The notes below the pieces were generated by a model. The model was not told where the DNA came from, searched no databases, and saw nothing but the letters and a program-made list of their open reading frames with translations. The translations under genes and the position numbers were made by a program. This document shows positions 46,589 to 59,067 of a stretch of 64,000 bases of DNA, piece after piece. Origin of the DNA: Geomonas ferrireducens (GTDB lineage: Bacteria; Desulfobacterota; Desulfuromonadia; Geobacterales; Geobacteraceae); NCBI RefSeq assembly GCF_004917065.1, contig NZ_SSYA01000003.1, positions 580,318 through 644,317 on the forward strand. The letters run 5' to 3'. The first letter of the stretch is position 1, and each line of letters starts with the position of its first letter.

Positions 46589-47410
46589 TTGACTCCTTAC
46601 ATTCTCTACGCCTTATTCGCCTTCCTGCTGGGGGCAGTGGTCGGTTCCTTTCTGAACGTCTGCATCTGCCGGATGCCGCACGGCGAGTCGGTGGTGTCGC
46701 CGCCGTCGCACTGCCCTAAGTGCGACTACCAGATCCGCTGGTACGACAACATCCCGATCCTCAGCTACCTGGCACTCAGCGGTAAGTGCCGCTCTTGCGG
46801 GACGCACATCTCGATCCAGTACCCGCTCGTCGAGGCTCTGAACGGGCTTTTAGCGCTCGCCCTCTTCGTCAAGTTCTTCCCGCCTGCTTTCCTGGACATG
46901 GCACCGCTGGAGGCGATGGGGCGGCCGGCCTTCTATTTCATCGTCCTCTTCGTGTTCTGCTGCGCTCTCGTCGTGATAACCTTCATCGACCTCGAACACC
47001 AGATCATCCCTGATTCGATCTCGCTTCCCGGCATCGTCGTCGGGTTCCTCGTCTCGTTCTTCATCCCGCACATCGGCTGGCTCAACTCGCTGATCGGCAT
47101 CGTGGCCGGCGGCGGAAGCCTGCTCCTCATCGCCTGGATCTACCAGGCGGTCGCCAAGAAGGAGGGCATGGGGGGGGGCGATATCAAGCTGCTGGCCATG
47201 ATGGGGGCGTTCCTCGGATGGAAATCGATCCTCTTCATCATCTTCGTCTCGTCGCTGCTCGGCTCCGCCATCGGCGTTACCCTGATGGCGATAAGGAAGA
47301 AGGACTCCACCCTCGCGATACCCTTCGGCCCCTTCCTGGCTAGCGCCGCTGTCCTCTACATCTTCTACGGCCGACGCATCATCAACTGGTACCTGAACAT
47401 GGGAGGGTGA
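46589..47410 (+). CDS. pilD: Prepilin peptidase / N-methyltransferase (A24 family)
   Basis: 273 residues from a TTG start preceded by AAGAGG. A polytopic inner-membrane aspartic protease that removes type IV prepilin leaders and methylates the new N-terminus. The N-terminal methylase-type domain has AVVGSFLNVCICRMP and the four-Cys zinc site (CPKC and CRSC). The catalytic Asp residues are in FIDLEHQIIPD and in GGGDIKLLAMMGAFLGW. About eight membrane helices. It overlaps the downstream sensor kinase by 4 bp and heads a pilus regulatory cluster. The many minor prepilins encoded downstream are its expected substrates. Confidence 0.94.
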   Translation: MTPYILYALFAFLLGAVVGSFLNVCICRMPHGESVVSPPSHCPKCDYQIRWYDNIPILSYLALSGKCRSCGTHISIQYPLVEALNGLLALALFVKFFPPAFLDMAPLEAMGRPAFYFIVLFVFCCALVVITFIDLEHQIIPDSISLPGIVVGFLVSFFIPHIGWLNSLIGIVAGGGSLLLIAWIYQAVAKKEGMGGGDIKLLAMMGAFLGWKSILFIIFVSSLLGSAIGVTLMAIRKKDSTLAIPFGPFLASAAVLYIFYGRRIINWYLNMGG

Positions 47411-48894
47411 GCGCGGCTGCCATGAAACCTCTCCGTTTCAGCCTCACCTTCTACATCCTCTCCGCCGTGAGCCTGCTGCTCGTGCTCGCATGGCTACTCC
47501 TCTCGCTTATCTCCTTCAAGACCGCAGAAAAAGACCTGCTGACCCAGAAAGGGGAAGACACCCGGCTTCTTTTGGGTGCCATCGTCTCCGTCCTGCCGCG
47601 TCCCTTGGCCCCGCCCGACCCCAAAAGCTCCGTGGCGCGGTATCTGGAACAGCTGAGGCAGGATGGCAGCTTTGAGGGGCTGCTTGTGGTGGACGATACC
47701 TTGCGACCGCTCTACGCGTATCCTGCCGGCAGTGCGGTGGACGACAGTCTTCTCAGCGTGTTGAACAACGGGCGCCCGCTTTTTCAAATCTCTGCCGATC
47801 ATGCCACGTGCCGCTCATACTCCGCGATCGTGGAGCAGGGGAAGGTCATCGGGGCGGCCCGGCTCACGCTCTCGCTTCGCCCCGCTCAGGAGCGGCTCCT
47901 ATCGTCGCGCCGTCTTTTTCTCGCTTACTTCGCCCTGGATTTCCTGCTGCTGCTGGTGCTTGGATCCTATCTGCTTTCCCGCACCGTGGTCTCCCCATTT
48001 AAGAAACTACTCCAGGCCACGCGGAGGATCACCGCCGGTGACCTCGGCGTTTCCGTGAACGTGGCGGGGAGTGCCGAGGTCGCGGAGCTCTCCGAGGCAT
48101 TCAACAGCATGCTGGTGGCTTTAAGGGAGAAGAGGGTGGAGGTCGAGGAGAAGGTAGCCGCGCTGACTTGGGCCAACAAGGAACTGGTCGAGGCGCGCAG
48201 CGAGGCGGTCCGATCCGAGAAGATGGCATCCGTCGGGCTTTTGGCTGCGGGTATGGCGCACGAAATCGGTACCCCCCTTGCGGCGATCATGGGGTACAGT
48301 GCGATCCTCACCGAGGATCTTGCCGCGGACCCGGAAAAGACGGATTACCTGCGGCGGATCATCGAGGAATCGCAGCGCATCGACCGAATTGTCAGGGGGC
48401 TTTTGGATTACGCCCGCCCGAAGGACGCGCAGCGCGAAGAGGTGGTGGTTCGCACTCTGCTGGAAAAGGTGGTTCAACTGCTTTCCCCCCAGGGGGTGTT
48501 GAAGCACCTGGAGGTGTCGATCGAGGTTGAGGCGGACCTACCGTTGATCTTTGCCGATCCTTATCAGCTAGAGCAGTTGCTGATCAACCTTATTATGAAC
48601 GCCAGAGACGCCATGCCGCGGGGTGGGAAACTGTGGCTAAAGGGAAGCAGTCGAGGAGCCGATGTGGTCGTCGAGGTGATCGACAGCGGCCACGGCATGC
48701 CGCCCGAACACATCGGGAAGGTGTTCGACCCGTTCTTCACCACGAAGGAGCCCGGGAAAGGGACAGGGTTAGGTTTGGCCATCGCCGCCCGCATCGCAGA
48801 ATCCTGTGGTGGTAAGCTCGAGGCCCAGAGCGAGCAGGGTAAAGGAAGCCGCTTCATTCTGACCCTTCCGGCGAAGGCGGAGAGTAAGGGGTAG
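47407..48894 (+). CDS. Sensor histidine kinase (PilS-like)
   Basis: 495 residues from a GTG that overlaps the pilD stop; an internal ATG at 47422 is an alternative. Two membrane helices (about 10-34 and 165-190) bracket a periplasmic region of about 130 residues without a recognised domain. HAMP (about 195-245), HisKA (LLAAGMAHEIGTPLAAIMGY) and HATPase ([30 protein letters not shown]) follow. It is followed by a sigma-54 response regulator and then a sigma-54 promoter for the PilY1 operon, so it probably controls pilus tip genes. Its signal is unknown. Confidence 0.92.
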   Translation: MSAAAMKPLRFSLTFYILSAVSLLLVLAWLLLSLISFKTAEKDLLTQKGEDTRLLLGAIVSVLPRPLAPPDPKSSVARYLEQLRQDGSFEGLLVVDDTLRPLYAYPAGSAVDDSLLSVLNNGRPLFQISADHATCRSYSAIVEQGKVIGAARLTLSLRPAQERLLSSRRLFLAYFALDFLLLLVLGSYLLSRTVVSPFKKLLQATRRITAGDLGVSVNVAGSAEVAELSEAFNSMLVALREKRVEVEEKVAALTWANKELVEARSEAVRSEKMASVGLLAAGMAHEIGTPLAAIMGYSAILTEDLAADPEKTDYLRRIIEESQRIDRIVRGLLDYARPKDAQREEVVVRTLLEKVVQLLSPQGVLKHLEVSIEVEADLPLIFADPYQLEQLLINLIMNARDAMPRGGKLWLKGSSRGADVVVEVIDSGHGMPPEHIGKVFDPFFTTKEPGKGTGLGLAIAARIAESCGGKLEAQSEQGKGSRFILTLPAKAESKG

Positions 48895-48924
48895 GCGGTG
48901 CGGGTGGCCGCCGGCGGGCTGCAG

Positions 48925-48980
48925 CCAGTCGGACCAGTCGGACCAGTCGGACCAGTCGGACGAGTCGGACGAGGTCCGAC
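48925..48980. repeat. Tandem 9-bp repeat CCAGTCGGA
   Basis: Four exact CCAGTCGGA units at 48925-48960, then one CGAGTCGGA and a partial inverted CGAGGTCCGAC. It lies between the sensor kinase and regulator genes. It can be read in frame as repeated Val-Gly-Pro if the regulator is started at GTG 48898, but a better start lies downstream of it, so it is more likely non-coding. Confidence 0.8.
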
Positions 48981-49002
48981 AGGAAAACTGAAGGAGCCGC
49001 AT

Positions 49003-50373
49003 TTGAGCGAGAAGAAGAAAATCCTGGTTGTGGACGACGAGGAAAACCTGCGTCACATGCTGCAGGTCCTGCTCAAAAAGCAGGGCTACCTGGTGGAGCA
49101 GGCGCCGGACGGCGCCGAAGCCCTCACCAAGGCACGCGAGGGGAACTACTCCTTCATCCTCTGCGACATCCGCATGCCGGTCATGGACGGCAAAAGCTTT
49201 CTCACCGCCTGCACCAAAGCGGGCGTCGGCGCCACGGTGATCATGATGTCCGCCTACGGTACCGTCGATGACGCCATCGAGTGCATGAAGCTTGGGGCCT
49301 ACGACTACATCTCCAAACCTTTCAACAGCGACGAGGTCGCCCTCGTCCTTAAAAAGGCCGAGGAGCGCGAGCGCCTGAAGGACGAAAACCGCCGCCTGCG
49401 CGAAGAAGTGGGGCGCGGCAGCACCCTTTCGGAGATCATCACCCGCAACGCGAGGATGTCCGAGATCATGCAGCTCGCCAAAAAACTCTCCGAGCACAAG
49501 ACCACGGTTCTTATCCAGGGCGAATCCGGTACCGGCAAGGAACTCATCGCCCGCGCCCTGCACAACTGCGGCTCGCGCAGACAAGGCCCCTTTGTTGCCG
49601 TCAACTGCGGTGCCATACCGGCATCCCTTCTTGAAAGTGAACTCTTCGGTCACGTCAGGGGGGCCTTCACCGACGCGAGCTATGACAAGGTGGGCCTTTT
49701 CGAGGAGGCGGATGGCGGCACCCTTTTTCTGGACGAGATCGCCGAGCTGCCGTTGCCGTTGCAAGTGAAACTGTTACGCGTGCTCCAGGAAGGAGAGATT
49801 CGCCGGGTAGGCGGGGCGGCCGCCACGAAGGTCGACGTTCGGGTGGTGTCCGCGACGAGCCGCGACCTCGTTCAGGAGATCGCAAACGGAACGTTCCGGG
49901 AGGACCTCTACTTCCGGCTCAACGTCTTCGCCCTTTCCCTCCCGCCACTGCGTGCGCGCATCGAGGATGTGCCTCTTCTGGTCGAGCATTTCCTGCAGAA
50001 ATACGGCGCGCTGATGGGAAAGCCGGGGGTGCGCCCCACGCCCGAGGCCCTGCAGGCGCTGGTGCACTACCGCTGGCCCGGCAACGTACGGGAACTTGAG
50101 AACTGCATAGAGCGCGGTCTTGTCCTTTGTGAAGGAACCGCTCTCGGGCTGGCTGCCCTCCCCGAGGGGGTGCGCGAGGAAGCGGGTCTTGGACGGTCGC
50201 TGCCTGAGCTGCCCGATTCGCTCTCCATCAAGAAAGGAGCAGAGGCGCTGGAGCGCCGGCTCATAGTGCGTGCCCTCGAACAGACGGGAGGCAACCGCAC
50301 TCATGCGGCGCGCCTGCTCGAGATCAGCCATCGCGCCCTTTTGTACAAGTTGAAGGAGTACGATCTCGGTTAA
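49003..50373 (+). CDS. Sigma-54-dependent response regulator (PilR-like) with GAFTDA loop
   Basis: 456 residues from TTG 49003, chosen because AAGGAG sits 6 bases upstream; the longer frame from GTG 48898 translates the tandem repeat. Receiver 1-120 (KILVVDDEENLRHMLQVLLK, phospho-Asp in CDIRMPVMDG). AAA+ domain with GESGTGKELIARAL and GGTLFLDEIAELPLP. The sigma-54 contact loop reads GAFTDA rather than GAFTGA. A Fis-type HTH is at the end (NRTHAARLLEISHRALLYKL). It is downstream of the PilS-like kinase, and the next gene has a sigma-54 promoter at 50519-50534, its probable target. Confidence 0.92.
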   Translation: MSEKKKILVVDDEENLRHMLQVLLKKQGYLVEQAPDGAEALTKAREGNYSFILCDIRMPVMDGKSFLTACTKAGVGATVIMMSAYGTVDDAIECMKLGAYDYISKPFNSDEVALVLKKAEERERLKDENRRLREEVGRGSTLSEIITRNARMSEIMQLAKKLSEHKTTVLIQGESGTGKELIARALHNCGSRRQGPFVAVNCGAIPASLLESELFGHVRGAFTDASYDKVGLFEEADGGTLFLDEIAELPLPLQVKLLRVLQEGEIRRVGGAAATKVDVRVVSATSRDLVQEIANGTFREDLYFRLNVFALSLPPLRARIEDVPLLVEHFLQKYGALMGKPGVRPTPEALQALVHYRWPGNVRELENCIERGLVLCEGTALGLAALPEGVREEAGLGRSLPELPDSLSIKKGAEALERRLIVRALEQTGGNRTHAARLLEISHRALLYKLKEYDLG

Positions 50374-50518
50374 CCGCCCCTGCGGTGCCAATTTTTTGCG
50401 GAGTCGGTGGCTCTGCTATGAAAAAAATGCATACGTTTCCGATTGCAGCCGTGGTATGGTATGGCGCAACTGTGCGGATTGAGGCGGAAACGGCGACAGG
50501 CTGATGTGCCTTCGTTCG

Positions 50519-50534
50519 AGGCATGGTTGTTGCT
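50519..50534 (+). promoter_or_regulatory. Sigma-54 (RpoN) -24/-12 promoter of the DsbC-like / PilY1 / minor pilin operon
   Basis: AGGCATGGTTGTTGCT matches TGGCAYRNNNNTTGCW except for the first base. The -24 GG and -12 GC are correctly spaced, and it lies 42 bp before the start codon at 50576 and just downstream of a sigma-54 activator gene. Confidence 0.7.
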
Positions 50535-50575: not shown

Positions 50576-51358
50576 ATGTCGTTGTGGAAAGTTCTCGCCA
50601 CTTTTACCTTTGCAGCAGCCGTTTCCTTCTCCTCCCAAGCCTTCGCCATGTCGCAAGGTTGCACCGGTGAATGCGCATCATGCCATTCGATAACCCTCCA
50701 GGAGGCGAGCGGTCTCTTAAAGGAGATCGGCTCGGTCAAGGACGTCAAGCCGGCACCGGTGCGTGGGCTCTACGAGGTCACCTTCGAACAGCAAGGGCAA
50801 ACGGGAGTCGCGTATCTCGACTACGGCAAAAAGCACATCATAGCCGGCCAGGTCTTCGACATCGCCTCGCGGCAGCCGGTGGGAGGTTCGGCGCAGGCTG
50901 CGCGCCAGGAGCGCAAGGATCACTTGGACCCTGCCACGCTAACCACGGATAACGCCCTGGTACTCGGCAACCCCAAGGGGAAGAAGAAGCTCTACGTCTT
51001 CACCGACCCGGAGTGCCCGTATTGCGCGAAGGCACACGTCGAGCTGAAAAAACTGGCGGCCATGGAGCCCGACCTTGCCATCTACATCAAGCTCTTCCCG
51101 CTCAAGATGCACCCGAAGGCCTACGACAAGTCCCGCGTAATCCTGTCGCGCAATTCGATGGAACTCCTCGACCAGTCCTTCGCAGGGAAGCCGCTTCCCG
51201 CCGCGACCGATAAGGATGCGAAGAAACCGGTCGATGATACTATCAGTTTCGCCGCCGCCAACGGCATCAACTCGACCCCGACACTCGTGCTCCAGAACGG
51301 GCGCATCGTCGTCGGCTACCAGGATGCGGCGGCCATGCAGCAGTTGCTGACAAGGTAA
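50576..51358 (+). CDS. DsbC-like thiol:disulfide isomerase with N-terminal CXXCH motif
   Basis: 260 residues, periplasmic by its signal peptide (FTFAAAVSFSSQAFA). After it comes CTGECASCH; the CASCH at 33-37 fits a c-type heme attachment site. A DsbC-like dimerisation domain follows (VKPAPVRGLYEVTF, YLDYGKKHIIAGQVFDI), then a thioredoxin domain with active site DPECPYCAKAH (CPYC at 147-150) and the cis-Pro region GINSTPTLVLQNGRIVVGY. It probably isomerises disulfides. It lies directly upstream of PilY1, which is very Cys-rich, so PilY1 folding is the likely task. The CXXCH could bind heme or act as an extra thiol pair. Confidence 0.85.
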   Translation: MSLWKVLATFTFAAAVSFSSQAFAMSQGCTGECASCHSITLQEASGLLKEIGSVKDVKPAPVRGLYEVTFEQQGQTGVAYLDYGKKHIIAGQVFDIASRQPVGGSAQAARQERKDHLDPATLTTDNALVLGNPKGKKKLYVFTDPECPYCAKAHVELKKLAAMEPDLAIYIKLFPLKMHPKAYDKSRVILSRNSMELLDQSFAGKPLPAATDKDAKKPVDDTISFAAANGINSTPTLVLQNGRIVVGYQDAAAMQQLLTR

Positions 51359-51415: not shown

Positions 51416-54400
51416 ATGGGAACCACTATGAACAGGCTCTTCATCAAGAAATTGCTGCTCATTTTATCTGTCATGCTTGTCCCAGCCTCAGTATTGGCTG
51501 CTACTGATCCGGGTGATAACTGGTGCATAACCCCGGCCTTCATCTCCGGCGGTATCAAGCCGAACCTTTTGCTGATGATCGATAACTCGGCCAGTATGTA
51601 CGATTTAGGCTACATCGCGGGATCGACCTCGGCTGCCCCGACCTATACCTGCGGCACCGGGTCCGGCTCCGCTACGGTTTCTTCGTCCTATTGCTTCGAC
51701 AACACCTACGACAATACCAAGGACTACGAAGGGTACTTCAGCAAGCTCAACAGCGACGGTACTTTTACCTATCCCGTGTACCAGTACTCGGGCGGGAAGT
51801 TCCAAGAGATCACAACCGGCGTTCCCACCGACACCGGCACCGGGATTTACCGGACCAGTTACGTCTTCATACAGATGTCCGGCAGCAGCAGTGCTACACC
51901 TCCCGACAGGGTCGTATCTTCCTTCATAGCCAGCGGCAGGTTCCTCAACTGGCTTGCGGCCTCGAAGTTCGACATCGAGAAGAAGATCCTGACTGGCGGC
52001 AAGTACGGCTCCGGCGTGCTGCAAAGCGAGAGCAGGGGGTGCGTGGGGCGGCGCTTCGTGAAGGTCTTACCCGCTCTCTCCGGCCTTTCATTTGCGGTGC
52101 GCGGTCCTACCGCCGTGGAACCCTACTACGACCCGAGCACGCAGGGCGGAGGTACCCGCATCGAGATCTTCGAGGGGACCTACAACCAGAGTGACTGCCA
52201 GTGCGCGGTCTACAACTGGAGCAGCGGGAACTACGGCCAGGCCAGCACCGATACCAAGAACTGCCTGTCCACCACCAATGCAGACAACGCACTTGCCACC
52301 ATCAACCACACCCAGCAGGCCTGCTGGAAGATCAAGGACAACATCAGGACCGGGGCGACCGGCGACGCAATCTGGCAGGGGGTGAGCATCAACAGCCTCG
52401 AGACCGCATGCGACAACGTTTATTCAGACCCTAAAAACCCGATTTCCCCGTCTGCCATCACCGACGAGTCCAGCGGCAACTACATCTGCACCAGTGCGGC
52501 GACCCACACGGCCCCGGTCGCACCATACATCGGCACCAGCTCGGACACCACCGGTTTCATCGGCAAGTGCTATAACCTGGGCGGCACCAAGTTCGGCGGC
52601 GGAAGCTCGACAGATGACTGCGTGAAGAACGAGATCCTGCACTACTGCATGGGGCAGAACTCCGCCGAGGTAACCGACCCTTCCTCGGTCATCCCCACCA
52701 GCGGCAACATCCCGTCGGTACTGATGGACGCCGGCGTGCGCGCCATCGGCTCGCCGGTCGGCCCTGCAGGGAAGCCGGGTTACTGCTCCCGCGCTACCTC
52801 GACCACCTGCTCCACCGATGGGGACTGCACCGCAAAGGTGTGCTCCAACGCTCCGAGCACGAGCTGCACCAGCGATGCGAACTGCACCTCACCCGGCGTC
52901 TGCGTGCCACAAACCTGCAACAACCCCTTCTACGCAAAGGTGGCCGTCTCATCCGCACCGAGCGGCCTCATCAACGACTTTGCCGGCAGCATTCGTTTCG
53001 GCGTGATGAGCTTCAACAAGTTCGGCTCTGCGAGCGAGTGCGGATCCATCCTCGACATGCCTTGTCCCAAGTTCTGCTCCGGCAACACCAACAAGGTCTG
53101 CAGCAAAGATGCGGACTGCCTTAGCAGTCTGAACGAAGGGACCTGTCAGGACCCCACGCCCCCGAATAGGGATGGCGGCGTGGTGCTCAACACCATCGGC
53201 TCGGCCGTCGGCGACCACAGCTCCGGCATTATCAACACCATCGACGGCCTCCAAGCGGTTTCCTGGACCCCCTTCGCCGAGGCGTACTACAACGCCATCG
53301 CCTATTTCGTCAAGGATGCCACCGCGACCACGGCTACCTTGAACTCGACCAAGTTCACGCCGACAGCAGCCGCCATTCAGGCGCCGCTTGCGAGCACGCA
53401 AGACCCCGCGCTCAACAACCAGAACCCGATCCAGTTCCGCTGCCAGCAAAACAACGTCTTGCTGATCACTGACGGTTCCTCGACCGCCGACAAGAACGAC
53501 ACCATGAGGAACAAGGTCACTGACACCTCCAACTACTTCAGGGACCCGGCCACCCTCGCCGAGACCGGCTCCACCGCAGGGGTGTGCGGCAGCTACGGTG
53601 GGAGTGCCTACCTCCACGACCTGAGCTACTTCGCCTATCACCGCAACCTCTTCGACCCCAGCCAGATCTGCCACGGTACCGGCGCCACCACCTGCGAAAA
53701 TTCGCAAACCATAAAGACACACGTCGTGTACAACGCGCCGTCCAGCACCGGCACGACCAACGTCTGCGATCCCTACGTGCAGATGAACATGACGGCGACC
53801 AACGGCGGCACCACGCTGCACAACCCGAACAACCCGACGCAACTGAGGACCGAACTCAAAACCGCCCTCGAGAGCATCGCCGGTGGGGCCGCCTCGGGTA
53901 CCGCGGCCTCCATCTTGAGCAACAGCGAGGGGAGCGGCGCCAACATACTGCAGGCGGTGTTCTATCCGAAGAAAGTATTCGCGGACCAGACCGAAGCCAA
54001 GTGGATCGGCGAGATGCAGAACCTCTGGTACTTCGTGGACCCGCAGATCAACCGCTCGACCATCCGCGAGGATACCGATCAGAACAACATCTTCGACCTG
54101 ATCCAGGACAAGGTGGTCAGCTTCCGCTTCGATAGCACGGACAACACCACCTACGCCTACACCTCCATTGACCAAAACGGCGATGGCTCAGGCGACACCG
54201 CCGAGGTGAAGGTGGACGCCGACTCCGTGAAGAGTATCTGGCGTGCGGGCAAGAAACTCTGGGCGCGTCCTTTGACCGGCACCGGCGCGAGGCCGCGGAG
54301 AATCAAGACGAGCATCAACGGCACTTCGCTCATCGACTTCTCCTCAGATACCTTCAAAGGGGATGCCGGTGTCGACAACTCGGCGACGCTGATGCCCTAC

Positions 54401-56344
54401 CTGGACCTCACGGACAGTGGTGTCGCCACCAACCTGATCAACTACGTGCACGGACTGGAGCAGACCGGCTACCGCAGCCGGACCGTCTCCATCAAGGATA
54501 CCCCCACCAGCACGCCGGTTTCCGGCATTTGGCGGCTGGGCGATATCATCTCTTCGACGCCGCGCATCCAGTCCAATCTCAAGCTGAACACATACAACCT
54601 GCAGGCTCCCAGCGGCTACAGCGACAGCTCGTACGCGTCGTACATAGCCTCCAATGACTACGGCAAGCGCGGCATGGTGTATGTTGGCGCCAATGACGGT
54701 ATGCTGCACGCCTTCAACTTCGGCAAACTCGACGTTACGGCGAGCGGCACCCAGAAGGCGACGCTGACAAAGCTGGAGAGTACCGACCCGGCGCTTGGGG
54801 AGGAGATGTGGGCCTACATCCCCAAACAGGCGCTTCCATACTTGAAGTACTACGCCGATACCAACTATAACCATCTCTACTACATCGACGGCGCCACCGT
54901 GCTCTTCGACGCGAGTATCGGCGCCCCCAGCGGCATCAGCGGTTGTACCGACTCGACCTATTACAACTGCGACCGGCTGAACACGGTGGTCGACAGCAGC
55001 AACAACCTCGACAGCGACAAGAACCCATGGCGCAGCATTCTGATCGGCGGCATGGGGCTTGGCGGGGCCTCGTCATCGAACTGCAGCGATCCCGCTACCA
55101 ACAACTGCGTGCCGACACCGCGCATGGACCCCGTCACCACCACCAAAGGGCTCGGCGTCTCCACCTATTTTGCCCTCGACGTCAGCGACCCCAAAAACCC
55201 CTCGCTGATGTGGGAGTTCAACCGCCCCACTGATAATGACCTCGGTTTCACCACCACCGGTCCCGCCATCGTCAGGGTGGGGGACAAAGGGAAGAACGGG
55301 CGCTGGTTTGCAGTTTTCGGCTCCGGGCCCACCGGTCCGGTCGACACCGACGGCAATCAATTCCAGGGACGTTCCAACCAACGTCTCAAGTTCTTCGTGG
55401 TGGATCTGAAGACGGGCGCCCTGGTGGGGGATCCTCTCGACTCCGGGATCGACAACGCCTTCGCCGGTTCCATGATCGGTGCTTCCATAGATACCGACCG
55501 CTGGAACCCCTGGGCCGCCGGCAATTACCAGGATGACGCCATCCTGGTCGGCTTCACCAAGAAGACCGGTACCGGCACCTCCGCCACTTGGACCGACGGC
55601 GGAGTGCTCAGGATCATGACCAACAACGACACCAATCCCGCCAACTGGATTGTGAGCAAGGTGGTTGACGGGGTAGGCCCGGTGGTGACTGCCATCGCCA
55701 GGCTGCAGGACCGCAAGAACATGAACCTCTGGTACTACTTCGGGACCGGCCGCTACTACTACCGGGCCGGGAGTTCCATCGACGACTACAGCTCGCGGCG
55801 CTCAATCTACGGCCTGAAGGATCCCTGCTACAACACCGCCGCCGTTCCCGGCAACAGGCTGGACCCGAACTGCAGTACCACCATCAGCGCCGGCAACATC
55901 ACGGACCAGTCTCCAGACACCATCTCCACTTCAATCGGCAGCGGCGGGTGGAAAATCGACCTGGATGTCTCGACGACCGCTTACGGTGCCGAACGAGTTG
56001 TCTCCGACCTGGTGACGCTGACCAACGGCACCGTTTTCGCCACCACCTTCGAGCCTACATCGGACGCATGCGGCTTCGGCGGCAATTCCTTCCTGTGGGC
56101 ATTGGGCTACAACACCGGCGGCAGGCCAAGCGACGCGGCTCTCTCAGGCAAGGCTCTGATCCAGCTCTCGACGGGTGAGTTCAAGGAGGTCGACCTTGCC
56201 CAGGCATTCGGCAGCGGCGCGACGCGAGCGTATCGGCGCAGTGCGACACCCATGACCGGAAAGCCGCCGGCGGATTCGTTCCCGGTGGTCAGCAAGAGCG
56301 CCAATAAGCCGGTCAAGAAGATCCTGCATATCCAGGAGCGCTGA
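51416..56344 (+). CDS. pilY1: PilY1-type pilus tip / biogenesis protein, Cys-rich
   Basis: 1,642 residues from ATG 51416 (GAGGTG upstream). Signal peptide 10-29. A von Willebrand A-like segment with the MIDAS motif LLLMIDNSASM (DNSAS at 56-60) opens the mature protein. Residues about 455-580 contain several short Cys modules of the form C-S-x-D-x-D-C (CSTDGDC, CTSDANC, CSKDADC). The C-terminal part (about 1040-1560) is the PilY1 beta-propeller, with GMVYVGANDGMLHAFNFG, EEMWAYIPKQALPYL and LMWEFNRPTDNDLG. PilY1 sits at the pilus tip or outer membrane and promotes pilus extension, adhesion and surface sensing. It is encoded with its DsbC-like folding helper and the minor pilins. Confidence 0.92.
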   Translation: MGTTMNRLFIKKLLLILSVMLVPASVLAATDPGDNWCITPAFISGGIKPNLLLMIDNSASMYDLGYIAGSTSAAPTYTCGTGSGSATVSSSYCFDNTYDNTKDYEGYFSKLNSDGTFTYPVYQYSGGKFQEITTGVPTDTGTGIYRTSYVFIQMSGSSSATPPDRVVSSFIASGRFLNWLAASKFDIEKKILTGGKYGSGVLQSESRGCVGRRFVKVLPALSGLSFAVRGPTAVEPYYDPSTQGGGTRIEIFEGTYNQSDCQCAVYNWSSGNYGQASTDTKNCLSTTNADNALATINHTQQACWKIKDNIRTGATGDAIWQGVSINSLETACDNVYSDPKNPISPSAITDESSGNYICTSAATHTAPVAPYIGTSSDTTGFIGKCYNLGGTKFGGGSSTDDCVKNEILHYCMGQNSAEVTDPSSVIPTSGNIPSVLMDAGVRAIGSPVGPAGKPGYCSRATSTTCSTDGDCTAKVCSNAPSTSCTSDANCTSPGVCVPQTCNNPFYAKVAVSSAPSGLINDFAGSIRFGVMSFNKFGSASECGSILDMPCPKFCSGNTNKVCSKDADCLSSLNEGTCQDPTPPNRDGGVVLNTIGSAVGDHSSGIINTIDGLQAVSWTPFAEAYYNAIAYFVKDATATTATLNSTKFTPTAAAIQAPLASTQDPALNNQNPIQFRCQQNNVLLITDGSSTADKNDTMRNKVTDTSNYFRDPATLAETGSTAGVCGSYGGSAYLHDLSYFAYHRNLFDPSQICHGTGATTCENSQTIKTHVVYNAPSSTGTTNVCDPYVQMNMTATNGGTTLHNPNNPTQLRTELKTALESIAGGAASGTAASILSNSEGSGANILQAVFYPKKVFADQTEAKWIGEMQNLWYFVDPQINRSTIREDTDQNNIFDLIQDKVVSFRFDSTDNTTYAYTSIDQNGDGSGDTAEVKVDADSVKSIWRAGKKLWARPLTGTGARPRRIKTSINGTSLIDFSSDTFKGDAGVDNSATLMPYLDLTDSGVATNLINYVHGLEQTGYRSRTVSIKDTPTSTPVSGIWRLGDIISSTPRIQSNLKLNTYNLQAPSGYSDSSYASYIASNDYGKRGMVYVGANDGMLHAFNFGKLDVTASGTQKATLTKLESTDPALGEEMWAYIPKQALPYLKYYADTNYNHLYYIDGATVLFDASIGAPSGISGCTDSTYYNCDRLNTVVDSSNNLDSDKNPWRSILIGGMGLGGASSSNCSDPATNNCVPTPRMDPVTTTKGLGVSTYFALDVSDPKNPSLMWEFNRPTDNDLGFTTTGPAIVRVGDKGKNGRWFAVFGSGPTGPVDTDGNQFQGRSNQRLKFFVVDLKTGALVGDPLDSGIDNAFAGSMIGASIDTDRWNPWAAGNYQDDAILVGFTKKTGTGTSATWTDGGVLRIMTNNDTNPANWIVSKVVDGVGPVVTAIARLQDRKNMNLWYYFGTGRYYYRAGSSIDDYSSRRSIYGLKDPCYNTAAVPGNRLDPNCSTTISAGNITDQSPDTISTSIGSGGWKIDLDVSTTAYGAERVVSDLVTLTNGTVFATTFEPTSDACGFGGNSFLWALGYNTGGRPSDAALSGKALIQLSTGEFKEVDLAQAFGSGATRAYRRSATPMTGKPPADSFPVVSKSANKPVKKILHIQER

Positions 56345-56347
56345 TTG

Positions 56348-56833
56348 ATGAGAGAGAGAGGCTTTACACTTGTCGAGTTGGTCGTGGTGGTCGGCATCAT
56401 CGGGATACTGCTTGCCATAGCCACCCAGCAGTTCAGCCAGATGCAGCAGAAGGCCGCCATTGAGGCGCAAGCGAGGAAGGTGTACAGCAAGCTAACCGAG
56501 ATACGCGCGGAGGCCATGTACACCCGGACGCCGCGCGCTGTCACCATCAGCGGAAATCAAATCAACACTTATGCCAGCAACGACACCACCGCCGCGCCAC
56601 TTTCCGTTCTTCAGTTCGGCCTACCCATGGTCATGAACGTTTCACCCGGCAAGGTAGTGTTCGACGGACAGGGGGTGATGCAGTCCGACGACCTTTCGGT
56701 CTGCGTCCAGCCGGACGGCTCCGGGAGCAACCTCGGGAGCTTCGACAGCGTTGTCGTCTCCGCCGTGCGCAGCTACATGGGAAAAAGACAAACCGGAGGG
56801 GCCTGTGCGCCAGCAAACATTACTCAAAAATAG
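56348..56833 (+). CDS. fimU: Minor prepilin, GspH/FimT-FimU type (set 1)
   Basis: 161 residues with a very short prepilin leader: MRERG, then FTLVELVVVVGIIGILLAIA, with cleavage after Gly and the conserved Glu at +5. The globular part (about 30-161) is GspH-like, ending in CVQPDGSGS ... GGACAP with two Cys likely to form a disulfide. An in-frame TTG just before the ATG is an alternative start. FimU-type minor pilins help prime pilus assembly with PilV, PilW, PilX and PilY1, all encoded here in that order. It overlaps pilV by 29 bp. Confidence 0.85.
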   Translation: MRERGFTLVELVVVVGIIGILLAIATQQFSQMQQKAAIEAQARKVYSKLTEIRAEAMYTRTPRAVTISGNQINTYASNDTTAAPLSVLQFGLPMVMNVSPGKVVFDGQGVMQSDDLSVCVQPDGSGSNLGSFDSVVVSAVRSYMGKRQTGGACAPANITQK

Positions 56834-57215
56834 CGACGGCTTTACGCTGGTGGAGCTGATGGCCGCACTGATCATCGTGGCAGTCGGCATGTTCGGTGTG
56901 CTACAGATGATCAACGTCACCCTGCAGCACAACCTCCAGAACGAGGTACGCAACGAGGGGGTGCGCATCGGCGAGAAGTACATGACCGACCTGAGGGGAA
57001 AGACCTTCGGCGTCTACTCCTCTCCGTATACGACTTTCGTCGAGAACGGGAAGATCCGGGGGGCGGTCAAGCCGTACACCGTGGAACGGACCTCGCAGGT
57101 GCTTGCCTCCGATGGGGGGGGGGCGAGCACGTACCAGCTGATGGTCAACGTAAGGTGGTCGTTGCGCAACGCGAATTACCAGAACGAGGTGGTCACTGTG
57201 AAGGTTCGACCGTGA
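56805..57215 (+). CDS. pilV: Minor prepilin, PilV type (set 1)
   Basis: 136 residues from GTG 56805, chosen for the GGAGG site 6 bases upstream; longer frames reach into fimU. Leader RQQTLLKNSDG, then FTLVELMAALIIVAVGMFGV. The domain resembles PilV/GspI minor pilins. It overlaps fimU at its start, and its stop lies 36 bp before pilW. PilV is part of the FimU-PilV-PilW-PilX complex thought to sit under PilY1 at the pilus tip. Confidence 0.82.
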   Translation: MRQQTLLKNSDGFTLVELMAALIIVAVGMFGVLQMINVTLQHNLQNEVRNEGVRIGEKYMTDLRGKTFGVYSSPYTTFVENGKIRGAVKPYTVERTSQVLASDGGGASTYQLMVNVRWSLRNANYQNEVVTVKVRP

Positions 57216-57250
57216 GACGCGGAACGCAGCGGCCGGCAAAGGGACTTCGT

Positions 57251-58444
57251 ATGCTGAGAGGAAATAAAGGCTATTCACTGGTGGAACTCATCGTCGTCAT
57301 GGCGATCTTCACCATCGTCATCGTCGTGGCTTCGGCGGGGTTCAAGACGGTCCTCACCCAGGTGGGGCAGCAGAGCAAGCTCATGGAGACCGATATCGGG
57401 AGCATCGTGGGGTTGGAGGTGCTCCGTTCCGATCTGCAGGGGACAGGGTATGGACTCCCCTGGGCCTTTCAGAACACCCCGTCGGGCTACACCGAGGTCA
57501 CCACCGCGGAGCCGAGCGGAGAGCCGCCCACCAACGCCAACATCTGGGCTTCCGGCCAGAGCCCTCGCAGCTACAACGACGCAGCCGCGGTCCCACGCGC
57601 GGTGCAAAGCGGCAACACCACCTTCAACCTGAAAGATGGGGTGGGGTCGCAGTATCTCGTGATCAAGTCGCTTACGGTGGCCGGATCCAACAGCGGAGTG
57701 CAGAAGAAATGGTTGTCGGTAAGTTACGACGAGACCAACACCAAAAAGGCCCCGCTCTGGAACGACCCGTCCAATATTCGAAACTTCAGCGACACCGATC
57801 GGGTTATTGTGCTCAGGAACACCTTCAGCAACAACGTGCCTAGCAGACAACTCCAGGTGAACGAAGGAACCGGCGCATATTCGACCACCTTCTCGCACTA
57901 CACCTCCCTGACGGTGCCCCATTCCTCCGGCGACATGTTCCAGGTCTACGGGGTCGACCCCTCGACCGATCTACGCATGCCGTTCAACCGGGCCGACTAT
58001 TACGTGAGGCAGCCTGCCACAATGCCCCCAGCCTGTGCTCCGAATACGGGAGTCCTGTACAAGGCTGTACTGAAGCAGGCGGCCAACGGCGGTTTCTCTG
58101 AGATTCCACTTTTGGACTGCGTGGCGGACATGCAGGTGGTCTACGGCATCGGGCCATCTGGAAGCGGCGACATCACCTTCCACGATACCACGCTGCCCGG
58201 CACCGGAACCGCACAGGAGATCCGCCAGCAGCTCAAGGAGATCAGGGTCTACGTCCTGGCCCATGCCGGCAGGAAGGACACCGGCTACAGCTACCCGAAC
58301 ACCACCATCGATGTTGGTGAAAAATTCGCCGGGGCCCTTAAGGGGAGGAGCTTCGATCTGGAGCATCAGATAGGCGGTGATTGGCGCAACTACCGCTGGA
58401 AGGTTTACCCCATCGTGGTGCGGCCGCAGAACCTCATTCAGTAA
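57251..58444 (+). CDS. pilW: Minor prepilin, PilW type (set 1)
   Basis: 397 residues from ATG 57251. Leader MLRGNKG, then YSLVELIVVMAIFTIVIVVA with the +5 Glu. A GTG at 57212 overlapping the pilV stop is an alternative that would lengthen the leader. The large globular domain contains LEVLRSDLQGTGYGLPWAF, ADYYVRQPATMPPACAPNTG, LLDCVADMQVVYGIG and RNYRWKVYPIVVRPQNL. The block LDCVADMQVV and the W/RNYxWKVY ending recur in the second PilW at 60090, showing the two are paralogues. Confidence 0.85.
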   Translation: MLRGNKGYSLVELIVVMAIFTIVIVVASAGFKTVLTQVGQQSKLMETDIGSIVGLEVLRSDLQGTGYGLPWAFQNTPSGYTEVTTAEPSGEPPTNANIWASGQSPRSYNDAAAVPRAVQSGNTTFNLKDGVGSQYLVIKSLTVAGSNSGVQKKWLSVSYDETNTKKAPLWNDPSNIRNFSDTDRVIVLRNTFSNNVPSRQLQVNEGTGAYSTTFSHYTSLTVPHSSGDMFQVYGVDPSTDLRMPFNRADYYVRQPATMPPACAPNTGVLYKAVLKQAANGGFSEIPLLDCVADMQVVYGIGPSGSGDITFHDTTLPGTGTAQEIRQQLKEIRVYVLAHAGRKDTGYSYPNTTIDVGEKFAGALKGRSFDLEHQIGGDWRNYRWKVYPIVVRPQNLIQ

Positions 58445-58458
58445 CAACGGCGGTATTT

Positions 58459-59067
58459 ATGAAAAAGCTCAAAAACGAAGAAGGTATCGCGCTGGTGACG
58501 GCGCTGATGTTCACCCTGATCTGCCTGGGGATCGTGGCCGCGCTGATGCAGATGCTTCTGCTGCAGACGAAGGTCTCTGCCGTCGAGAAGAATTATCGCA
58601 ATTCGCTGGAGGCGGCCTACGGCGGCACCGAATTGGTCACCAAGGAGTTCATCCCCAAGCTCTTCACCAACTACTCGACCGGCATCGGACCTCTGCTCAC
58701 GGCCTACGCGAGCAACATCGAGCTTCAGGCGAGCACCGGGCTCAAGACCAAACTGAGCAGCGCCACAAGCGACTGGGGGACCCTTTCCAAGACCCTGAAC
58801 CCGAAAGACGCCCCGGACCTGCAGTTCATGCTCAAGGGGACCGGCACCAACGGCAACTTCAAAGTTTACGCGAAGGTTGTAGACACGGTTCCGGGGAACT
58901 CCGATACCACCGGCATCGACTACCTGGACAGCGGCGTCGGGGTTGCCGGCAGCGGCTCCGGCATCGCGCCCAAGCACAACCCGGCCCTCTACAGTGTGGA
59001 GGTGCAGGGAGAGCGGGCCTCCAACCCGAAGGAAAAGGCGATCCTCTCGGTTCTCTACGCCTACTGA
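58459..59067 (+). CDS. pilX: Minor pilin assembly protein, PilX type (set 1)
   Basis: 202 residues from ATG 58459. N-terminus MKKLKNEEGIALVTALMFTL has a PilX-like hydrophobic helix with Gly before the processed region. EKNYRNSLEAAYGGTELVTK and the C-terminal VEVQGERASNPKEKAILSVL are shared with the second PilX (61242), where the same ends read ALVTALMLTAL and LAVQGIRDGQERERARLSVL. It is the last gene of the first set; a strong terminator follows at 59091. Confidence 0.83.
   Translation: MKKLKNEEGIALVTALMFTLICLGIVAALMQMLLLQTKVSAVEKNYRNSLEAAYGGTELVTKEFIPKLFTNYSTGIGPLLTAYASNIELQASTGLKTKLSSATSDWGTLSKTLNPKDAPDLQFMLKGTGTNGNFKVYAKVVDTVPGNSDTTGIDYLDSGVGVAGSGSGIAPKHNPALYSVEVQGERASNPKEKAILSVLYAY

Follow-up and report, generated by a model that had tools for sequence, protein, structure and literature searches.

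A conserved DsbC-type protein with a predicted heme c site, encoded beside pilY1

Cytochrome c maturation and disulfide formation are rivals for the same periplasmic cysteines. Both appear to meet in the product of one gene (50576..51358, + strand) of the window, the whole 64,000-nucleotide stretch of DNA analysed here. Delimited by its open reading frame (ORF), Pfam matches, a family alignment and trees, this gene encodes a DsbC-type protein of 260 amino acids with an N-terminal CXXCH motif. Does the motif carry a heme, and does the protein serve the cysteine-rich PilY1 encoded next to it? The reading favoured here, with a probability of roughly 0.6, is that of a periplasmic, probably dimeric DsbC-type thiol:disulfide isomerase or reductase with one covalent heme c per chain at the N-terminal CXXCH. 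The analysis shows the domain make-up, the conservation in the clade of C-x-x-C-H and of the catalytic CXXC and TP motifs, the gene order and the presence of System II; export, heme attachment, a dimer, isomerase activity and help with PilY1 folding in the window's operon are what we infer. A disulfide isomerase that is also a predicted cytochrome would join both cysteine systems in one chain, an unusual mixture of folding helper and cytochrome if the heme is attached.

The arrangement described in the first-pass annotation, with CASCH at residues 33-37 after a signal peptide and ahead of a DsbC_N and a CPYC thioredoxin domain, agrees with the coordinates, length and Pfam matches found here. 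The signal peptide (residues 1-24; 50576..50647, +), which ends in SQAFA and is followed by MS, was assigned by eye from its hydrophobic stretch and AFA cleavage site, and the AlphaFold model has a helix at residues 4-17 within it. Cys29 (50660..50662, +), located through its aligned column, lies upstream of CASCH (C33-A-S-C36-H37; 50672..50686, +), the covalent heme c site predicted from family conservation. The DsbC_N dimerisation domain follows at residues 53-100 (50732..50875, +; Pfam PF10411, 33 bits, cut-off 25), and then the thioredoxin-fold catalytic domain at residues 134-258 (50975..51349, +; Thioredoxin_2, PF13098, 60.7 bits, cut-off 27), which contains the CPYC active site at residues 147-150 (51014..51025, +). 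The TP motif of this domain is T234-P235, the proline of which we take to be cis. A role for Cys29 as a lipoprotein cysteine was rejected, as by eye the preceding residues do not fit a lipobox and the cysteine is absent in some members. The nearest named relative is Geomonas oryzae, with 95% identity for this protein; the first-pass annotation had referred to the cytochrome-rich periplasm of Geobacter, and the relative belongs to the family Geobacteraceae but not to that genus.

By sequence, the best solved relatives are the DsbC proteins of Yersinia, Escherichia coli and Salmonella (PDB 1eej, 1jzd, 4npb, 4i5q), with which the window protein shares DsbC_N, the thioredoxin catalytic domain, a CXXC and the TP motif. 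An AlphaFold model built from a 16-row alignment (mean pLDDT 81.4, pTM 0.59; 51.7 to 81.4 mean pLDDT over five models, with values below 50 at residues 12-35) retrieved DsbC structures first in Foldseek (E 1.2e-13, probability 1.00). The ten best matches had query TM scores of 0.44-0.48 and an rmsd of about 10 Å over both domains, which indicates that the single domains match DsbC and their relative placing does not. The NCBIfam model PRK10877, a DsbC equivalog, scored 77 bits against a cut-off of 215. The protein is consequently DsbC-type and not an equivalog of E. coli DsbC, from which it also differs in its active site, CGYC in DsbC versus CPYC or CPFC in most family members. Across the family, DsbC_N was matched by 43 of 46 rows at E 0.01, P235 is present in 94/94 and T234 in 92/94 of the members with CXXCH, and both cysteines of the catalytic CXXC occur in 98/98 members, including the four that lack CXXCH and with four TGA codons entered as cysteine.

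The window protein also departs from these relatives in its N-terminal extension with CXXCH, which was not seen in the solved structures matched. The DsbC matches of the family profile begin at position 43 or later, past the CXXCH, and no Pfam or NCBIfam model or solved relative matched here spans CXXCH together with the DsbC fold. Likewise, no Pfam or NCBIfam cytochrome c domain model matched the protein, and Paired_CXXCH_1 was weakly matched by one of 46 family rows (E 0.0092). The same genome also encodes an ordinary DsbC-like paralogue without CXXCH (L002) and a shorter thioredoxin-fold protein.

Is the motif then a chance occurrence? Relatives of the protein were found in all 58 genomes searched, its own included, and a family member in 44 by our count. 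The first-pass annotation had tied the heme proposal to conservation of the motif, to be given up if close orthologues lacked it; C33, C36 and H37 are kept in 53 of 56 aligned orthologues and CXXCH in 94 of the 98 family members of the tree set. Evident duplicates (L033-L043, L106) and short rows (L080, L099, L105 and the second piece of L089) were dropped before these counts, and L046 was additionally left out of the 56-row alignment; among the dropped rows, L080 is an intact member (a 261-residue ORF with CITCH) and L099 and L105 also carry CXXCH. Such conservation rules out a chance motif.

A wider view came from a profile search at E 1e-20 of 395 genomes of the phylum, which gave matches in 127. 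Among the matches listed, 79 scored at least 155 bits and all were read: 71 carry CXXCH and eight do not (G027, G032, G397, G231, G430, G274, G228 contig 585 and G245 contig 76), the search profile, built mostly from CXXCH members, favouring such members somewhat. Six of the eight have both domains, whilst G274 and G228 contig 585 match over the C-terminal part only and were counted as lacking the motif. As eight of the 79 best matches have no CXXCH, the heme would be dispensable in some members. From the 71 matches listed below 155 bits, 22 were read: CXXCH is absent from 18 of 18 lower-scoring DsbC-like proteins and from the paralogue L002, and is present in three rows, comprising two pieces of one G151 gene (CASCH) and a truncated G040 copy (CTTCH). 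A tree of 103 proteins separates the family (98 rows) from five DsbC-like outgroup proteins with support of 100/100, and none of the five outgroup proteins has CXXCH. When the tree is built without the motif region, the distribution of CXXCH calls for three changes inside the family, for which loss is the best reading; the CXXCH-less members from G231, G430 and G245 were found later and stand outside the tree. Some DsbC-like relatives without CXXCH (L201-L214, L218, L219) have features of their own, most of them possessing, where both regions are visible, an N-terminal cysteine and a second cysteine in a GLC(E/Q) stretch, which perhaps form a structural disulfide.

CXXC motifs are common in redox chemistry, and the N-terminal pair could in principle be a further redox-active disulfide from which electrons pass to CPYC, the histidine being incidental. 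A redox CXXC has no need of a histidine, however, and this residue follows in 94/94 of the members with the N-terminal CXXC; a scan of the family members for an N-terminal CXXC without it returned only three matches, all judged by eye to lie in signal peptides. The residue that follows the catalytic CXXC is, in contrast, variable (A, K, R, S, G and others). Retention of CXXCH, an invariant histidine and a variable post-catalytic residue together form the pattern of a heme c site rather than of a redox CXXC. In E. coli, the DsbD_N domain belongs to DsbD, the partner of DsbC. Among 395 phylum genomes, 47 have this domain (PF11412); it was not found in that of the window (G000), a further difference from the DsbC system which makes another entry for electrons thinkable. 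Against this use of the finding, DsbD_N is also rare where the best match listed for a genome falls below 155 bits, at 4/59 (G066, G103, G196, G417), and none of the 18 of those genomes that were read has CXXCH, so its absence is not tied to CXXCH. A relay of this kind is accordingly regarded as very unlikely. The absence of DsbD was rejected on the same grounds as a sign of a cytochrome route: DsbD_N occurs in one of 61 genomes with a CXXCH member among the 79 best matches (G207) versus 46 of 334 others, counted regardless of kinship, but the 4/59 figure is similarly low.

For the favoured reading, in which the motif carries heme, the machinery for attachment appears to be at hand. ResB was matched three times in the window's genome and CcmF not at all, a combination that indicates System II cytochrome c synthesis. 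According to the available part of one study, purified CcsBA attaches heme in vitro to CXXCH peptides of 9, 11, 16 and 20 residues, and attachment depends on both thiols and the histidine, and does without the first helix of cytochrome c (PMC8112865). By analogy, an exported, N-terminal and weakly modelled CXXCH should be a CcsBA substrate. Because CXXCH is conserved, System II is present and CcsBA acts on short CXXCH peptides, a covalent heme c on this DsbC-type protein is likely, as judged from sequence. Co-occurrence with the cytochrome c synthesis genes says little about dependence on System I or II, as these genes are too common: ResB is found in 332, CcmF in 52 and, by our union, either in 371 of the 395 phylum genomes, and one or other in 59 of the 61 genomes with a CXXCH member. 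G137 (96% complete, 610 contigs) and G252 (88% complete) have the family gene and neither ResB nor CcmF.

The residues upstream of the motif allow another kind of ligand set to be considered. The Cys29 column is cysteine in 78 of 94 CXXCH members. In a simple scan of the ten residues upstream of CXXCH, which can count signal-peptide cysteines (e.g. L148), cysteine occurs in 75/94, histidine in seven and neither in 12, two of which (L067 and L082) have a cysteine 11 residues upstream. With a cysteine or histidine within ten residues in 82 of the 94 members, four potential ligands are available that could bind zinc or another structural metal in place of heme. The 12 members with neither residue, and a spacing that varies from 3 to 10 residues next to an invariant CXXCH, argue against such a site, as does the expectation, drawn from the available part of the CcsBA study (PMC8112865), that CcsBA should attach heme to a reduced CXXCH on an exported chain; a purely structural metal site is thus very improbable. 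On the heme reading, a distal ligand may be sought among the conserved residues. H154 is kept in 90/94 and H179 in 89/94 CXXCH members, both also being found in all four tree members without CXXCH, and no histidine or methionine among the 98 family members is conserved only together with CXXCH, which weighs against the heme reading.

Thioredoxin-fold proteins are already connected with CXXCH through cytochrome c maturation. To our knowledge, CcmG, ResA and CcsX carry no CXXCH themselves. They resemble the window protein as periplasmic thioredoxin-fold proteins tied to CXXCH chemistry, but differ in that, in the available part of the source, their role is to reduce the CXXCH of apocytochromes (PMC4460558). 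No CcmG or ResA model was among the Pfam and NCBIfam matches of the window protein. Could the family nevertheless act in this pathway, as a reductase or decoy for apocytochromes that acquires heme in passing? Some neighbourhoods speak for it: in L150, profile matches place siroheme-synthase N-terminal, ccsB and hemA genes after the family gene, an arrangement that also counts for the favoured heme reading, and by eye siroheme-synthase-like and ccsB-like genes also lie downstream in L165 and L167, with hemA in L165 as well. The neighbours at other loci differ and no fixed ccs or ccm link was seen, which leaves a maturation role quite unlikely. By profile, L154 has dapB, the family gene and a GGDEF response regulator in that order, and several other loci look alike by eye; elsewhere the neighbour is pilY1 or, in family f51, a gene for a TfpZ-like type IV pilin accessory protein, which comes immediately after the family gene (L187 6855-7607, L191 4907-5662). 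The TfpZ profile matched these two genes at E 6.6e-35 and 8.4e-36, both under its curated cut-off, and L164 and L185 were assigned by eye; as read from these sequences, the TfpZ-like neighbour is a second link to type IV pili. A supposed ccm link in family f28 was discarded, the genes being 4-7 kb apart on opposite strands and not in an operon.

The first link to type IV pili is the operon of the window itself. Upstream on the + strand lie genes for a prepilin peptidase (PilD; 46589..47410; PF06750, PF01478), a sensor histidine kinase in the PilS position (47407..48894; HAMP, HisKA, HATPase_c) and a sigma-54 response regulator in the PilR position (48898..50373; PF00158, PF00072, PF02954), the latter two presumably being PilS and PilR. 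Downstream, pilY1 (51416..56344, +; PF05567, 36.1 bits, cut-off 28.1) encodes 1642 residues with 39 cysteines, and is followed by minor pilin genes (56345..59067, +; FimT/GspH-like, PilV-like, PilW-like and PilX-like), each with N_methyl or PilX_N above cut-off and with the PilV and PilW models matching below their own cut-offs. As the first-pass annotation stated, the DsbC-type gene directly precedes pilY1 on the same strand, the gap being 57 nt when ATG 51416 is chosen as the start, rather than TTG 51365 of the ORF list. A consensus scan of the + strand found no terminator-like site between the two genes and two such sites (50373-50386 and 50505-50525) between the regulator gene and the DsbC-type gene, and no sigma-54 promoter was seen by eye before the latter. 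One grouping of this kind has been described in Leptospirillum, where the TFP12 thiol oxidoreductase gene is grouped with a prepilin peptidase gene; the available part of that source describes the protein as cytoplasmic and describes no CXXCH, which sets it apart (PMC7084401).

How general is the association with pilY1? Within the order, called Geobacterales from named relatives, by our count, 35 of the 44 genomes with the gene have a pilY1 no more than about 500 nt further downstream on the same strand; for one of them (L060) the evidence is a partial match at a contig end. In other orders, 60 loci were compared with two PilY1 queries, and only L176 proved to have a PilY1-like gene nearby; there, a prepilin peptidase-like gene is followed by a family gene that lacks CXXCH, then by minor-pilin-like genes and a PilY1 of 61 cysteines (apart from PilY1, the genes were named by eye). 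Many loci are cut off at contig ends, so that a neighbour not seen may still exist. All but one of these 60 loci retain CXXCH. Conversely, pilY1-adjacent copies without CXXCH are found in L076 and L085 (two sister genomes), in the tandem second copy of L062 and in L176. The heme motif and the pilY1 association can thus occur one without the other: CXXCH persists with no pilY1 nearby and has been lost from some copies next to pilY1. On this sequence pattern, the thiol activity is a better candidate than the heme for serving PilY1, and the role of the heme looks more general. The earlier suggestion that the protein folds the cysteine-rich PilY1 therefore stands in part: the conserved place before pilY1 supports it, whereas a protein that exists for PilY1 folding is at odds with CXXCH being kept without pilY1 and lost beside it, and with adjacent PilY1 ORFs ranging from 11 to 78 cysteines. 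A second PilY1 in the window's genome (L199 1622-6275, C3 about 493.6-498.3 kb), with no family gene beside it, has 29-30 cysteines, and the idea that PilY1 is unusually cysteine-rich when paired was dropped in the absence of a clear pattern. A tie between CXXCH loss and pilY1 operons was likewise rejected: in the tree set, CXXCH is missing from 4/38 pilY1-adjacent members versus 0/60 others (Fisher p 0.02), but an independent-pairs test had only two to three pairs and gave no support, and by eye the CXXCH-less genes of G231 and G430 show no pilY1 nearby.

The closest functional precedent for a heme protein beside PilY1 is TfcP of Myxococcus xanthus, a noncanonical cytochrome c with His/Cys ligation encoded beside pilY1, which stabilises PilY1.1 and promotes its calcium binding, and of which heme-less variants accumulate poorly, according to the available part of the paper (PMC8833165). 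Could the window protein likewise be a heme protein that mainly chaperones or stabilises PilY1, with thioredoxin activity secondary? Both are periplasmic with a single CXXCH and a gene beside pilY1 and minor pilins (PMC8833165, available part), and the gene position is the same, tfcP lying immediately upstream of pilY1.1 in the available part of a second source (PMC13190605). A gene in G040 adds some support: its 123-residue ORF has CXXCH and the dimerisation part, lacks a thioredoxin domain and precedes a PilY1-like gene. Against this stand the catalytic CXXC in every family member, the position of all four CXXCH-less tree members in pilY1 operons, the reverse of what would be predicted, and the lack of any cytochrome c domain match. 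TfcP is also set apart by its description, in the available part of the paper, with a cytochrome c domain, a distal Cys91 about 60 residues past the motif and a charged C-terminal helix, and that text makes no mention of thioredoxin or disulfide (PMC8833165); past CXXCH, the window protein has no cysteines other than C147 and C150, which belong to the thioredoxin site about 110 residues away. A predominantly TfcP-like role is thus unlikely, and TfcP is, by analogy, an analogue and functional precedent rather than the same protein. Searches of open-licence papers brought up no description of a DsbC with CXXCH, of a disulfide isomerase with heme, or of a gene of this type next to pilY1; judged from sequence conservation, the protein is a real, conserved DsbC variant with a predicted heme, for which the papers searched yielded no description.

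The mechanism envisaged for the favoured isomerase reading is as follows. The protein would be exported to the periplasm, where the System II synthase would attach heme to the N-terminal CXXCH, placing one heme c per chain just before the dimerisation domain. A DsbC-like dimer would form, and CPYC, by analogy with its family, would reduce or reshuffle disulfides, PilY1 being a probable client in the window's operon on the basis of gene order. For the heme, stabilisation of the N-terminus and coupling of the enzyme to cytochromes are both conceivable; our preference is for a cofactor that stabilises the isomerase or gives it a redox coupling, and that serves the family in general instead of PilY1 in particular. 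A bolder version, which we consider doubtful, would have cytochrome-coupled disulfide isomerases across the phylum, in which a DsbC dimer with two covalent hemes would let electrons pass between CPYC and the cytochromes of the periplasm, in place of the DsbD route or in addition to it, and would in Geobacterales have been wired to assembly of PilY1, the protein at the pilus tip. Such proteins could supply cytochrome-rich periplasms with an electron source or sink for protein folding other than DsbD, and the pairing makes the folding of PilY1, a large protein with many cysteines, testable.

Several loci show variant forms of the gene. The family gene is present as tandem duplicates in L062, L078, L169 and L186; in L062, the first copy has CXXCH and the copy adjoining pilY1 does not. 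The 123-residue ORF of G040 (L105 971-1342, - strand) has a signal-like start and CTTCH, overlaps by 4 nt a 107-residue ORF (651-974), beyond which lies the PilY1-like gene, and may be either a free heme module or a truncated copy. In L147, L148, L160 and L046, an in-frame TGA (about 1872, 6417, 756 and 7384, respectively, coding strand) stands at the first cysteine of the catalytic CPYC and homology continues past it, which makes these probable selenocysteine (U-PYC) forms of the family.
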